From NCBI RefSeq assembly GCF_034093315.1, contig NZ_CP139300.1:124001-188000 (forward strand): DNA of 64,000 nucleotides, read 5' to 3'. The stretch's first letter is position 1. Each line of letters starts with the position of its first letter. This DNA is from Prochlorococcus sp. MIT 1314 (GTDB lineage Bacteria; Cyanobacteriota; Cyanobacteriia; PCC-6307; Cyanobiaceae). Shown here one piece after another: positions 3,171 through 7,047 of this stretch. The notes under the pieces were generated by a model. That model ran no database searches and was not told where the DNA came from. It saw only the letters and a program-made list of their open reading frames with translations. The position numbers and the translations under genes are program-made.

Positions 3171-3190
3171 AAAAATAAGTTAGAGTTATA

Positions 3191-3368
3191 TTACTGGATC
3201 TTTGGTTAAGTTCTTCTTTATGTGCTCTGATCTGACTCTCTTTCGACATGAGGAGACTGTCGTGATGCGGTAGTAAACCGATCTTGTAATCGGAAACGAA
3301 AGCCCACTTTGAATCCTCTTCTGGCATTTCCAGGTCGATGCAGCAGAGAACTGACGGGGATCCGGTTT
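3191..3368 (+). ncRNA. ssaA: 6S RNA (ssaA/ssrS type)
   Basis: No convincing reading frame, but clear RNA character directly after purK, the known position of the cyanobacterial 6S RNA gene. The two ends close perfectly: ACTGGATC at 3193-3200 pairs with GATCCGGT at 3359-3366 (one G-U). The roughly 175-nt length and the long imperfect hairpin with a central open region fit 6S RNA, which binds the RNA polymerase housekeeping holoenzyme. Local GC content is visibly higher than in the flanks. The exact 5' end is not determined; processing from the purK transcript is possible. Confidence 0.85.
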
Positions 3369-3369
3369 T

Positions 3370-3415
3370 ACCTATCAAATGCTTGCTATAACAGGCTTTT
3401 GATGGGTATTTTATT
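3370..3415 (+). terminator. Rho-independent-like terminator after 6S RNA
   Basis: ACCTATCAAA (3370-3379) pairs over 10 bp, with one G-U, with TTTGATGGGT (3398-3407). An inner stem GCTTG/CAGGC (3381-3385 with 3392-3396) extends the hairpin. A T-rich tract, ATTTTATTTT, follows. It would end the 6S RNA or the purK-6S transcript. Confidence 0.7.
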
Positions 3416-3476: not shown

Positions 3477-3523
3477 TTGACGATCCATCTCTAATGTATT
3501 TATATTAGTAGTACACATGTATT
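3477..3523 (+). promoter_or_regulatory. Promoter with LexA-like operator, copy 1
   Basis: A -35 box TTGACG (3477-3482) is followed after 18 bp by a -10 box TATATT (3501-3506) and then a near-palindrome AGTACACATGTATT (3510-3523). The palindrome fits the pattern AGTACA-NN-TGTATT and differs by one arm position from the cyanobacterial LexA consensus as I recall it (RGTAC-N3-DGTWC-B). The same arrangement recurs at 5926-5971. Operator function and the identity of the regulator are inferred. Confidence 0.6.
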
Positions 3524-3531
3524 ACTAAGTA

Positions 3532-3831
3532 ATGACTTTAGGAGGAGCTAATGTTTGGACTAATTTTTCTTACGGTTATCGTAATGAGTCCCCAAGTGGT
3601 TGGTTGCTTAGCCCAGACCGCAGCAGATTAATTTTATTTATGAGGAATAAAAAATCTCCAAGAAATAGTATGAGAATTTTTGCTCATACATATTATGCAA
3701 ATGATCTTGGTGAGCCAATTGCAATTAAATCAACCACCCAAATGTATTTGGATAATGCTTGGGATAAATGGCATGACCTTCAATTAGAAGGTTGGACTTT
3801 TGAAGAACTTGAATTACCTGAATCTGTATGA
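3532..3831 (+). CDS. DUF1651-like conserved hypothetical protein, copy 1
   Basis: Up to 99 residues, function unknown. From the G-W-L motif (about residue 23) it aligns along its length with the protein at 5972-6268: shared features are G-W-L, an L-I-L/I-S-F segment, Y-A-N-(D/E)-L-G-E-P, and a G-W near the C-terminus. The pattern matches the marine-cyanobacterial DUF1651 family, named from memory. The ATG at 3532 has no Shine-Dalgarno and lies only 9 bp after the putative operator. A strong AGGAGG at 3540-3545 instead serves a different-frame ATG at 3551. The true DUF1651 start may therefore be downstream, for example the TTG of the G-W-L-L segment. The stop overlaps the next gene's start (ATGA). 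Confidence 0.75.
   Translation: MTLGGANVWTNFSYGYRNESPSGWLLSPDRSRLILFMRNKKSPRNSMRIFAHTYYANDLGEPIAIKSTTQMYLDNAWDKWHDLQLEGWTFEELELPESV
3551..3631 (+). CDS. Overlapping 26-residue lipoprotein-signal-like peptide, copy 1
   Basis: This ORF lies inside the DUF1651-like gene in another frame. It starts at ATG 3551, 5 nt after AGGAGG (3540-3545), the best ribosome binding site of the locus. The product starts MFGLIFLTVIV and contains P-Q-V-V-G-C with Cys19, followed by only seven residues. The hydrophobic stretch ending in V-V-G-C resembles a lipobox. The paralogous locus encodes a 26-residue relative (5997-6077) that also starts MFGLIF, keeps P-Q-x-x-G-C-L and has its own Shine-Dalgarno. Function is unknown; small lysis-type or signalling lipopeptides would look like this. 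Confidence 0.5.
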   Translation: MFGLIFLTVIVMSPQVVGCLAQTAAD

Positions 3832-3968
3832 CTAACTTAAATCCAATCAAAAAGAAATTATCAAAAGTAGATAGAAAGATATCTATGCAAGACCCATCAA
3901 AATTATTAGCAGAATTTTTTAATGGTGTTGTCATTGAACTTGATGAAGAATATAAATATGACTCATAA
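3828..3968 (+). CDS. Small hypothetical protein (46 aa)
   Basis: ATG at 3828 overlaps the stop of the DUF1651-like gene by 4 nt (ATGA), suggesting translational coupling. The N-terminus is lysine-rich (M-T-N-L-N-P-I-K-K-K) and the C-terminus acidic (E-L-D-E-E-Y). There is no recognised domain and no membrane segment. It belongs to a tightly packed unit with the genes on either side. Confidence 0.6.
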   Translation: MTNLNPIKKKLSKVDRKISMQDPSKLLAEFFNGVVIELDEEYKYDS

Positions 3969-4120: not shown

Positions 4121-4234
4121 TTATTTGGTTTTTATTTTTTTCTTAATTCTCAGAAAACCGTAAGTTGCAAAGCCAACCAAAAACATATCCAAGTAAATAT
4201 GCCAAGTAGGAAAAATCTGATGTATTAATTCCAT
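4121..4234 (-). CDS. Small membrane protein (37 aa)
   Basis: ATG at 4234 overlaps the stop codon of the ligase-like gene (TAATG), so translation is probably coupled. The product begins M-E-L-I-H-Q-I-F-P-T-W and has one hydrophobic stretch (Y-L-D-M-F-L-V-G-F-A-T-Y-G-F-L) followed by a lysine-rich tail, as expected of a single-span protein with a cytoplasmic C-terminus. Function unknown. Confidence 0.6.
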   Translation of the reverse strand: MELIHQIFPTWHIYLDMFLVGFATYGFLRIKKKIKTK

Positions 4235-4983
4235 TAACGTTTTATTGCCACTTGCCAATAAGGATAATCTAAATTTGATTTTTCTCTAATTAATTGTAAT
4301 TTTCTAGAATTTATTTTTACTACTATTCCATCTGTTGGATATTTACTAAAAAGCTTCCCTTCTAGCCATTGTTTTCTAAATACTTCAACTTGGCTCGTAA
4401 AGTTGCATGAAATATCCTCAGGGATCGTGAAGCCAAGCTTTGAAAGACTCTTTTTGGACTCATATTGGTTAAGTGTTGAATTAAGTATTTGAAATGAGCA
4501 GAAGCTAAGATTTTCAGAAAATCCTTCTTTAGCTCTTAGAAATCCAGAAGCGATTATCTGGGAGATATTTGGACTTTGGTTGGGTGCATATAATTCACCT
4601 CTAACTTGAAGAACTCCTAGTAAAGGAAAATTATTGGGAATGTCTTGGACTTTAATAAGTTTACTAGTAACGTCTTTCCCTTTTCTTGAAATTGCTTTCT
4701 CCAAGGTTCCATCTCTATATTGCAAAGCAACAGCACAACCATCAATTTTCGGCTCAATTAATAATCTGGTATCTACTAATAATCCTTTCAAAAATTCATC
4801 TAATGAATCCTTTTCTAATGAAGGTAAAATTAGTTTATTTTTCTTTTTAAAGTAATCACAATTAGGGTTTGTTCTTAATAAATTCTTTTCAAGTTGGTCG
4901 AACTGCTTATCAGAAATTAAAGCATTACCATTTCTATAATTATCGTCATACCATTCAATTCGTTCTTCTAAATAAGTCTTCAT
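4234..4983 (-). CDS. Compact NAD-dependent DNA ligase-like protein, adenylation domain only
   Basis: At 249 residues this is far shorter than LigA (about 670). The N-terminus resembles the NAD-specific Ia domain (a Y-D-D-N-Y stretch and I-S-D-K-Q-F-D-Q-L near residues 12-31). Nucleotidyltransferase motifs follow in order: motif I E-P-K-I-D-G with Lys79 as the expected AMP acceptor, an S-R-K-G-K-D-V-T segment, motif III V-R-G-E-L-Y, motif IV D-G-I-V-V-K-I-N, and motif V ending in A-I-K-R at the very C-terminus. OB-fold, zinc-finger, HhH and BRCT domains are absent. In known LigA proteins the isolated domain can self-adenylate but not ligate efficiently, so this may be a partner-dependent ligase or another nucleotidyltransferase. 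It sits in a minus-strand run of small genes with abutting ends. Confidence 0.8.
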   Translation of the reverse strand: MKTYLEERIEWYDDNYRNGNALISDKQFDQLEKNLLRTNPNCDYFKKKNKLILPSLEKDSLDEFLKGLLVDTRLLIEPKIDGCAVALQYRDGTLEKAISRKGKDVTSKLIKVQDIPNNFPLLGVLQVRGELYAPNQSPNISQIIASGFLRAKEGFSENLSFCSFQILNSTLNQYESKKSLSKLGFTIPEDISCNFTSQVEVFRKQWLEGKLFSKYPTDGIVVKINSRKLQLIREKSNLDYPYWQVAIKR

Positions 4984-5925: not shown

Positions 5926-5971
5926 TTGACGCCCAGGAGTAGTACATTTATATTAATAGTACAACTGTATT
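5926..5971 (+). promoter_or_regulatory. Promoter with LexA-like operator, copy 2
   Basis: TTGACG (5926-5931), a 17-bp spacer, TATATT (5949-5954), then AGTACAACTGTATT (5958-5971). This repeats the element at 3477-3523 almost part for part, and an extra AGTACA half-site lies inside the spacer (5941-5946). The first ATG (5972) follows the palindrome directly, so the transcript leader must be very short. Confidence 0.6.
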
Positions 5972-6268
5972 ATGTTTATGGCTTCTGGAGTTGCTGATGT
6001 TCGGACTTATTTTTATCGTGGCAGCCTTATTGACCCCCCAACTGGCTGGTTGTTTAACAAAAAAAGTGGTTTATTAATTTCTTTTGAGAATTATAAGAAA
6101 TCCGTATCTAATAACTTAAAAGTATACACTCATCTTTTCTATGCAAATGAATTAGGTGAACCAGCCAAAATTAAAAATTCAAGACTTCTTTCTACTGAGT
6201 GTGCTTGTGAAACATGGAATGAATTAATTTCACGAGGTTGGCAAATTGTTACTAATAAATTCCAGTAA
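5972..6268 (+). CDS. DUF1651-like conserved hypothetical protein, copy 2
   Basis: 98 residues in its longest form and paralogous to the product of 3532-3831. The shared part starts at G-W-L (about residue 26) and includes Y-A-N-E-L-G-E-P and a terminal R-G-W. Upstream of G-W-L the two proteins share little in this frame, while the overlapping 26-codon frame is better conserved, so the annotated N-terminus is doubtful. Function unknown. Confidence 0.75.
   Translation: MFMASGVADVRTYFYRGSLIDPPTGWLFNKKSGLLISFENYKKSVSNNLKVYTHLFYANELGEPAKIKNSRLLSTECACETWNELISRGWQIVTNKFQ
5997..6077 (+). CDS. Overlapping 26-residue lipoprotein-signal-like peptide, copy 2
   Basis: ATG 5997 is preceded by GGAG (5987-5990) at good spacing. 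The product starts MFGLIFIVAALL and contains T-P-Q-L-A-G-C, a canonical lipobox (L-A-G-C) with Cys19, then seven residues to a TAA at 6075. It is related to the peptide at 3551-3631. Compared codon by codon in this frame, differences are synonymous or hydrophobic-conservative (TTT/TTC, CTA/CTT, TGC/TGT; V/L, V/A, M/L), which argues for real coding. Confidence 0.5.
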   Translation: MFGLIFIVAALLTPQLAGCLTKKVVY

Positions 6269-6293: not shown

Positions 6294-6504
6294 ATGGGAA
6301 TATCTAAAAGAATTTACCCTAATACTAAAACGAACAAAGATTTATATTACTTGCAATCACTTTCGCTACAGCACTACAGAAACTTTTGCTACTATCTTGA
6401 TCTGTCCAAGATACGAAAAACGCATACCTCAGGGCGATCATTTACTTAAAGGTTGTGAGTATTGGCAAAAAAATAGGATGATATTTTCTCCTGAAGTATC
6501 TTAA
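6294..6504 (+). pseudogene. Probable frameshifted small gene (C-P-R-Y-E-K-R family remnant)
   Basis: A frame open from about 6331 to a TAA at 6502-6504 encodes a protein-like sequence with spaced Cys and His residues (I-T-C-N-H-F, I-L-I-C-P-R-Y-E-K-R, G-D-H-L-L-K-G-C-E-Y-W) but has no ATG, GTG or early TTG start. An ATG at 6294 opens another frame that runs out at about 6449. The simplest reading is one indel near 6335 splitting a gene of roughly 70 codons. A non-AUG start at ATT 6340 is possible but has no good ribosome binding site. Confidence 0.35.
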
Positions 6505-6707: not shown

Positions 6708-6874
6708 GATGCATTAAATTAGGTTCCAATTTTTTTAAATTACCAAAAACTTCTTTAAGATTATCAATAAATAATAAATTTATTTTTAGAGTTTATAATA
6801 AAACCAGCATTTTTACTGATTTACTTTCTGTATAAGTAAGAAGTAAGTTAAATTTGTTGAATAGGAGGGATCTA

Positions 6875-6916
6875 ATGATTGACAGTCCACCAGAGAAGAT
6901 AGTTTTTAAAAAATAA
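6875..6916 (+). CDS. Candidate 13-codon ORF with strong Shine-Dalgarno
   Basis: AGGAGGGA just upstream of ATG 6875 is an unusually strong ribosome binding site for this genome. The peptide is M-I-D-S-P-P-E-K-I-V-F-K-K. A hairpin with a T tract follows at 6941-6977. This could be a micro-protein, a leader peptide, or the body of a small RNA in which the AGGAGG is a binding site rather than a start signal. Confidence 0.3.
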   Translation: MIDSPPEKIVFKK

Positions 6917-6940
6917 ATCTAGATAAAACTAATGCTAAGT

Positions 6941-6977
6941 AAGGAATGTTTCTCTTATTCGAGATTCATTCCTTTTT
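6941..6977 (+). terminator. Rho-independent-like terminator
   Basis: AAGGAATG (6941-6948) pairs perfectly with CATTCCTT (6967-6974), with a few additional inner pairs (CTC/GAG), and is followed directly by a run of T to 6977. It closes the short transcript carrying the 13-codon ORF. Confidence 0.65.
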
Positions 6978-7047
6978 AATTTGTTTAAAAAAAAACACGT
7001 AAATTTATGAATATTAAATTATAAAAGCCAAAAATATATTTTTATTT

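Follow-up and report, generated by a model that had tools for sequence, protein, structure and literature searches.

A probable unannotated gene for a hydrophobic peptide, nested out of frame in the 5' end of DUF1651 genes of high-light Prochlorococcus

The window analysed in this study is a stretch of 64,000 nucleotides from Prochlorococcus sp. MIT 1314, the genome of which counts 1,704,447 bases. It holds two genes of the DUF1651 family, copies A and B (Table 1), which both pass the Pfam profile PF07864 (41.8 and 50.6 bits, respectively; gathering cut-off 22). Inside each of them, shifted by +1, lies a second frame of 26 codons with its own Shine-Dalgarno sequence, as a sequence-only reading of this DNA had pointed out and as we confirm here. 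We refer to the first ATG of the DUF1651 gene as ATG1, to that of the overlapping frame as ATG2, and to the overlapping frame as the MFGLIF frame. In the case of copy B, position 5972 had been taken for the start of the DUF1651 gene; the other listed B peptides have no methionine there and the conserved start is the one given in Table 1. Two more DUF1651 genes are encoded elsewhere in the same genome, in which the MFGLIF motif occurs only twice, at A and B. The space between copy A and a purK-like gene holds a 6S RNA (3188-3372; Rfam RF00013, 94.6 bits), a position like that of yfr7 in MED4.

Some other elements of the surroundings are mentioned for completeness. The small RNA Yfr11 is found at 6856-6980 (Rfam RF02363, 48.2 bits; gathering cut-off 44). 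An ORF of 249 aa on the minus strand (4234-4983) looks by eye like the adenylation domain of an NAD-dependent DNA ligase, the rest of which is absent. At the 3' side of copy B, the ORF at 6397-6504 ends in PQGDHLLKGCEYWQKNRMIFSPEVS, by eye like the end of the Cys-rich ORF that follows the MED4 copy; it has the appearance of a decayed remnant and was not among the matches in a phmmer comparison of ATG ORFs.

Table 1. Features of the two DUF1651 loci in the window.
Feature	Coordinates	Strand	Basis or remark
Sigma-70-type promoter of copy A, TTGACG - 18 - TATATT	3477..3506	+	10/12 matches
LexA-type box AGTACACATGTATT, copy A, near the expected transcription start	3510..3523	+	Resembles Prochlorococcus recA/lexA sites (available text of PMC3091678)
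DUF1651 gene copy A, 99 aa, from ATG1	3532..3831	+	Pfam score and kept ATG1
Shine-Dalgarno AGGAGG of the overlapping frame, copy A	3540..3545	+	5-6 nt 5' of ATG2
Overlapping +1-frame ORF, copy A, 26 aa, MFGLIFLTVIVMSPQVVGCLAQTAAD	3551..3631	+	Scarce changes, kept start
46-aa ORF overlapping the DUF1651 copy A stop (ATGA), possibly on the same transcript	3828..3968	+	Homologue at the same place in genome G015
Sigma-70-type promoter of copy B, TTGACG - 17 - TATATT	5926..5954	+	
LexA-type box AGTACAACTGTATT, copy B	5958..5971	+	Kept in orthologues
DUF1651 gene copy B, 96 aa, from the conserved ATG1 (5978, not 5972)	5978..6268	+	
Shine-Dalgarno GGAG of the overlapping frame, copy B	5987..5990	+	5-6 nt 5' of ATG2
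Overlapping +1-frame ORF, copy B, 26 aa, MFGLIFIVAALLTPQLAGCLTKKVVY	5997..6077	+	Clearest coding signal

Across the genus, a search with the copy A protein yields matches in 184 of 200 genomes, while the back-translated MFGLIF motif matches 168 of the 200 and 64 of the 66 genomes with a completeness of at least 90% and a contamination of at most 5%. The copies that carry the frame form three groups, namely the two window types A and B and a third type, C (MTLGGANVWSNFSYGS...). A fourth group, D, shares the type of promoter box and the DUF1651 domain with them but starts later and lacks the MFGLIF frame altogether. Within the loci examined, the overlap is seen only in the genus Prochlorococcus. 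In other genera of the family, none of the matches listed begins before residue 10 of the longer frame, and the MFGLIF frame is absent from the 28 DUF1651 loci of other genera that were examined. The MFGLIF DNA pattern does occur in 11 genomes outside the genus, with no DUF1651 frame in the seven of them whose loci were inspected. The C-type protein gave no match to 50,697 phage records (tblastn, E 0.01), and a comparison with PHROGs gave none for the two DUF1651 proteins and one at E 0.12 for one of three peptides. An IMG/VR contig of 42 kb that is called viral carries an A-type copy with MFGLIF frame near the contig end (5001-5288).

Changes were counted by parsimony on FastTree trees, with the expectation derived from codons 34-90 of the DUF1651 frame and with identical DNA collapsed in all sets of sequences. 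The first set includes loci picked by the MFGLIF pattern (L035-L064) and is therefore biased. The main set comprises orthologues that were not picked by the motif (136 A, 111 B and 15 C; 262 distinct sequences). It includes loci added from a search for relatives, in which some of the A loci were found by matching residues 1-9 of the DUF1651 frame to a pattern; a reduced set without any loci of that search (86 A, 38 B, 15 C) gives the same picture. Among 80 listed rows of added relatives, all are Prochlorococcus except four titled uncultured Synechococcaceae. Two A and one B sequences with fewer than 90 codons were left out of the first-set change counts, and four B hits were dropped from the main set and one from the reduced set, being short or unplaced by the anchor motif. 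A broken B copy of genome G199 falls below the 70-residue search floor and thus lies outside the main and reduced sets.

Both starts are strongly conserved. ATG2 is kept in 131 of the 136 A sequences (otherwise three ACG, one GTG and one AAG) and in all 111 B and 15 C sequences, and a Shine-Dalgarno 4-mer precedes it in every one of the 262 sequences (A 136/136, B 111/111, C 15/15). The frame behind it ends after residue 19 in three A sequences, and in none of the 126 B and C sequences before residue 25. Homologues with a broken MFGLIF frame, which the sequence-only reading had named as counterevidence, do exist and are rare (an ACG or AAG start in 4/136 and an early stop in 3/136 A copies, with ATG2 kept in 126/126 of B and C). 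At the Shine-Dalgarno site, the DUF1651 protein reads mostly LGGA in A and mostly SGVA in B (first set), so the shared GGAG is not explained by this protein. Codon 4, the GGA of the Shine-Dalgarno sequence, accumulated 0 third-position changes in B versus 20 at the fourfold degenerate codon 5, with 3 versus 8 in A and 0 versus 1 in C. At codon 7, the first base versus the two bases that belong to ATG2 changed 8 versus 0 times in B and 5 versus 4 times in A.

The lack of a Shine-Dalgarno sequence in front of ATG1, noted earlier for the window, holds among the orthologues (4-mer present in 3/97 A, 0/42 B and 0/14 C; first set). The suspicion that ATG1 is spurious does not hold, since it is kept in 135/136 A (one GTG), 109/111 B and 14/15 C sequences and, where a LexA-type box is found, follows it at 6-9 nt. 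Codons 2, 3 and 6, outside the Shine-Dalgarno core, show 10/3/21 (A), 18/8/21 (B) and 2/1/12 (C) changes at first, second and third positions, a pattern that agrees with translation starting at ATG1, although B shows it less clearly than A and C. Judged from these alignments, the longer DUF1651 frame from ATG1 is genuine too. In the broken B copy of G199 (L112), the DUF1651 frame is disrupted and ATG1 reads CTG, with ATG2 kept and its frame open for 30 codons, a single case that could be a sequencing error. The reverse is seen in genome G010, with AAG for ATG2 in the A copy and an intact C copy.

The geometry of the overlap places the third position of each DUF1651 codon at the second position of an MFGLIF codon. 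If DUF1651 were selected alone, its third positions should change most. At codons 8-13 of the main set, they changed once in A, never in B and once in C, versus 27.1, 18.0 and 11.6 expected (2 versus about 57 in total); in the reduced set the counts are 0, 0 and 1 versus 22.7, 8.4 and 11.6. By first, second and third position, the main-set changes at these codons are 2/0/1 in A, 21/8/0 in B and 0/1/1 in C. The third-position invariance first perceived between the two window copies is therefore maintained among orthologues and exceeds chance. Sliding windows over the first set rank the window at codon 8 as number 2 (A), 7 (B) and 2 (C) of 81 from the lowest number of third-position changes, and a fourfold-site test on the same set gives p values of 0.002 (A), 0.0007 (B) and 0.22 (C), copy C being significant in the tree-based counts. 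Gene starts might be poor in silent changes as a rule; this was ruled out for A and B, whose codons 2-6 have more third-position variation than the codons further downstream. In C, this variation is about equal to that downstream.

Over codons 8-19, the changes at first, second and third positions amount to 5/2/21 in A, 51/20/11 in B and 9/5/5 in C, with 54.1, 36.0 and 23.2 expected at third positions (reduced set: A 5/2/14, B 26/9/5 and C 9/5/5, with 45.5, 16.8 and 23.2). In copy B, this is a reversal of the 118/78/171 pattern of codons 34-90 (Fisher 5.3e-9), where third positions take 171 of 367 changes, and first positions changed at twice the downstream rate (51 versus 24.8 expected). The combination of low third and doubled first positions carries the signature of coding in the second frame and implies that the DUF1651 extension of B is not kept as protein; at these codons the DUF1651 frame shows no constraint, and in B the case for it comes only from the codons outside the overlap. 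Among the 21 distinct B variants of codons 8-19 (first set), 11 are silent in the MFGLIF frame only, versus 5.5 expected, and the non-silent ones swap I, L, V, M, A, F and T in the peptide. The third-position share is also low in copy C (Fisher 0.0065).

Copy A shows no such reversal (Fisher 0.98). Here, changes of every kind are scarce, most so at codons 8-13, and first positions of codons 8-19 changed 5 times versus 23.4 expected; such an all-round scarcity is what is expected if both frames are constrained. The distinct A variants of the first set lean towards silence in DUF1651 (5 versus 2.4 expected) and not in the MFGLIF frame (2 versus 2.8); in the peptide, some of them replace V by G, I by T and M by T. 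Over codons 8-19, third DUF1651 positions change least in B but most in A (21 times versus 5 and 2). Taken together, the comparison points to selection on the second frame, by the reversal in B and the depletion in A and C, and to constraint on the DUF1651 frame in A. The orthologues support the proposal that a second coding frame, equipped with its own ribosome-binding site, is under selection. On this comparative basis, we regard the overlapping MFGLIF frame as real and as subject to selection, and high-light Prochlorococcus probably carry an unannotated overlapping gene; that the second frame is a translated, selected gene we consider very likely.

Three explanations for the depletion other than a functional peptide have to be weighed. 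The overlapping frame might be translated as a regulator only, ending about 100 nt inside the DUF1651 gene and tuning DUF1651 synthesis while the peptide itself is inert, an arrangement for which the Shine-Dalgarno sequence inside the first DUF1651 codons and the full overlap would be suited. We regard this as unlikely, as the residue pattern is kept (the MFGLIF start of most peptides listed for A, B and C; the residue swaps in B), which argues against a decoy that needs no such pattern. Little probability is likewise left for a constraint on the DNA or RNA itself, such as an antisense-RNA promoter, a small-RNA target or a regulator site, with no second protein. Copy A, nearly frozen at all positions of codons 8-13 (2/0/1 changes), would agree with it, as would the antisense RNA of PMM0684 reported in the available text of PMC2518516; yet, copy B shows 21 first-, 8 second- and 0 third-position changes at the same codons, and this three-base rhythm is a coding signature. 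Moreover, sigma-70-like matches in the region are overall not above shuffles (10 found, 17.3 expected), the same arrangement being present before A and B.

A programmed -1 frameshift, with a start at ATG2 and a slip near CCCCAA (codons 20-21) that yields a DUF1651 protein with a membrane anchor, is improbable as well. The third-position depletion of A and C is clear to about codon 19 and not beyond, near the start of the DUF1651 domain, as this reading would have it (codons 20-24: 16 versus 22.5 in A, 8 versus 9.6 in C; codons 20-31: 76 versus 54.1 and 23 versus 23.2). In B, however, the depletion persists behind the presumed slip site (12 versus 36.0 at codons 20-31), which speaks for the whole peptide and against the frameshift, a sign that A and C do not give. 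The run of C nucleotides is not kept in copy A, where codon 20 is TCC in 82 of 97 sequences and otherwise TCT, TCA, TAC and others, no canonical slippery heptamer is recognized by eye, and ATG1 with its codon-like variation would be superfluous.

The peptide predicted from the MFGLIF frame is largely hydrophobic from residue 2 to 20 in A, B and C, and most listed peptides of the three groups open with MFGLIF (first set); in MED4 it reads MFGLIFLMAVVLIHPMAG... The tails differ, being typically AQTAAD, TKKVVY and TRKAAF, respectively. The best 19-residue mean hydropathy is 2.09 (A), 2.06 (B) and 1.75 (C), and the values of A and B exceed those of all 53 ATG ORFs of 20-40 residues in the +1 frame of 43 long window frames, the highest of which reaches 1.73. 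Hydrophobicity in the +1 frame is partly expected where third positions are mostly T, but its evolutionary locking is not so expected. By these values, the predicted peptides of A, B and C are short and hydrophobic with a single putative span, as those of the TisB/DinQ kind are. Provided that the frame is a translated and selected gene, its product is likely located in the membrane.

The peptide had initially been read as a lipoprotein, possibly an Rz1-like lysis lipopeptide of about 8 residues, on account of a cysteine at residue 19. This cysteine is indeed kept in most A (113/136) and B (106/111) sequences, but is replaced by Tyr or Phe in 23 A and all 15 C sequences and by Tyr in five B sequences (219/262 with Cys in total), so a lipobox is not a shared feature. 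The n-region of a lipoprotein signal is expected to hold a basic residue, and peptides with the MFGLIF-type start have no Lys or Arg ahead of the hydrophobic stretch, the exception being the G010 locus with the AAG start codon (first set). Codon 25 of the DUF1651 frame, which sets residue 19, varies silently in DUF1651, with seven third-position changes in A (first set). The lipoprotein reading is not supported by these sequences; the variation of Cys19 rules against it and leaves it very improbable.

A LexA-type box is present at the above distance from ATG1 in 92/97 A, 41/42 B and 14/14 C loci (147/153; first set), and a box is also found in 7/7 loci of group D, while the third copy of genome G015 (L288) has none by pattern. 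In the MIT 1314 genome, the LexA-type pattern occurs at seven places: A, B, an ORF that we take to be RecA, two small ORFs arranged in the same way and two sites inside genes. The strict palindrome stands 5' of the presumed RecA ORF. Since LexA-type boxes are not above control genome-wide (6 forward and 2 reverse versus 4 and 3 for the reversed pattern), the argument rests on their place and conservation. The available text of PMC3091678 gives AGTACACATGTACT and GGTACAAATGTATT as the MED4 sites of recA and lexA, respectively, and the promoter box at A and B is of this type. The sequence evidence suggests that the DUF1651 genes studied here belong to the SOS response. The two small ORFs directly behind LexA-type boxes in an A/B-like layout (L303, near 1184480, 76 aa; L304, near 1490416, 68 aa) have no Pfam match above cut-off.

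A link to phage infection comes from MED4. Genome G015 has its 6S RNA at record positions 652620-652804 and a C-type copy at 652944 (G015:C1:652944), and yfr7 of MED4 is placed at 652625-652844, between purK and PMM0684, in the available part of PMC1242208. This agreement identifies G015 as MED4 and its C-type copy as PMM0684. According to the accessible sections of the respective papers, expression of the DUF1651 genes PMM0684 and PMM0819 goes up in P-SSP7 infection (PMC5490813); phage induction is also described for PMM0684, PMM0685 and PMM0686, along with an antisense RNA of PMM0684 that rises together with its mRNA (PMC2518516). Going by the gene numbers, we take PMM0819 to be the A-type copy near 774 kb. 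The MED4 locus continues with a 45-residue ORF that overlaps the DUF1651 stop, homologous to the 46-aa ORF of the window, and then with the Cys-rich ORF of 76 residues.

In this study, we propose, with a probability of roughly 60%, that the MFGLIF frame encodes an SOS- or phage-inducible single-span membrane peptide that is nested out of frame in the DUF1651 gene and is kin in kind to DinQ and TisB. As far as sequence comparison goes, selection acts on both starts, on the Shine-Dalgarno sequence and on the coding pattern of the second frame. Points that weigh against the proposal are the lean of the A variants towards silence in DUF1651, the few A copies with a lost ATG2 or an early stop, the missing depletion past codon 19 in A and C, the absence of the frame from group D, the number of LexA-type boxes in the genome and the G015 copy that has no box. 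Each locus would thus be a gene pair that shares its DNA in two frames. One transcript, from the promoter with the LexA-type box, would carry both starts: ATG1, without Shine-Dalgarno sequence, would open the DUF1651 protein with an extension of about 22 residues before the domain, and ATG2, 19 nt later and with a good Shine-Dalgarno sequence, the 26-residue peptide of the +1 frame. This peptide is presumably translated, would span the membrane once with residues 2-20, followed by the less conserved tail, and may be made upon DNA damage or phage infection under putative LexA control. Its effect on the membrane might then be comparable to that of the SOS-induced DinQ and TisB, exerted together with the DUF1651 protein or alongside it; such an action is possible, but we hold it only tentatively. 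More speculative, and unlikely as a complete picture, is a dual-coding phage-response module in which a LexA-controlled membrane-acting peptide is paired with a DUF1651 protein that either joins in its action or holds it back.

If true, the shared bases would make effector and partner inseparable by recombination, and a very abundant phototroph would possess an effector and its partner in overlapping frames, born by overprinting within the genus. The selection evidence derives from 262 distinct sequences, a backing that same-strand overlapping genes in bacteria seldom have. It concerns an unannotated peptide inside genes of a kind reported to be phage-responsive in Prochlorococcus (PMM0684 as identified here, PMM0819 by report) and offers a concrete membrane candidate for the unexplained host response of DUF1651 genes. 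In the passages covered by our full-text search, no overlapping peptide at these genes is mentioned. A change of ATG2 to ACG turns AAT into AAC and is silent in DUF1651, so that a single change could separate the two products.

Small, often membrane-active products that are nested out of frame are known from Rz/Rz1 of lambda, E within D of phiX174 and comS within srfAB. Those are phage lysis or competence genes, whereas in the present case the outer frame is formed by the 5' end of a cyanobacterial DUF1651 gene and the two starts are 19 nt apart. Unlike the MFGLIF frame, dinQ is not known to be nested in another protein gene, nor is TisB known to have an overlapping partner gene. In other respects the E. 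coli systems are close in description. DinQ is likewise a short single-span peptide under SOS regulation, with antisense RNAs at its locus (available text of PMC3567139). TisB of the TisB/istR-1 type I toxin-antitoxin system is a LexA-induced hydrophobic peptide of the inner membrane and of the same kind (PMC8145889 and PMC11997105, in the portions available). Its RNA antitoxin is established, whereas for the genes studied here one MED4 antisense RNA is reported in the accessible text, co-induced with the mRNA (PMC2518516). With respect to the outer gene, the longer frame is by Pfam score a member of the marine cyanobacterial DUF1651 (PF07864) genes that are described, in the sections available, as host-response genes (PMC5490813).
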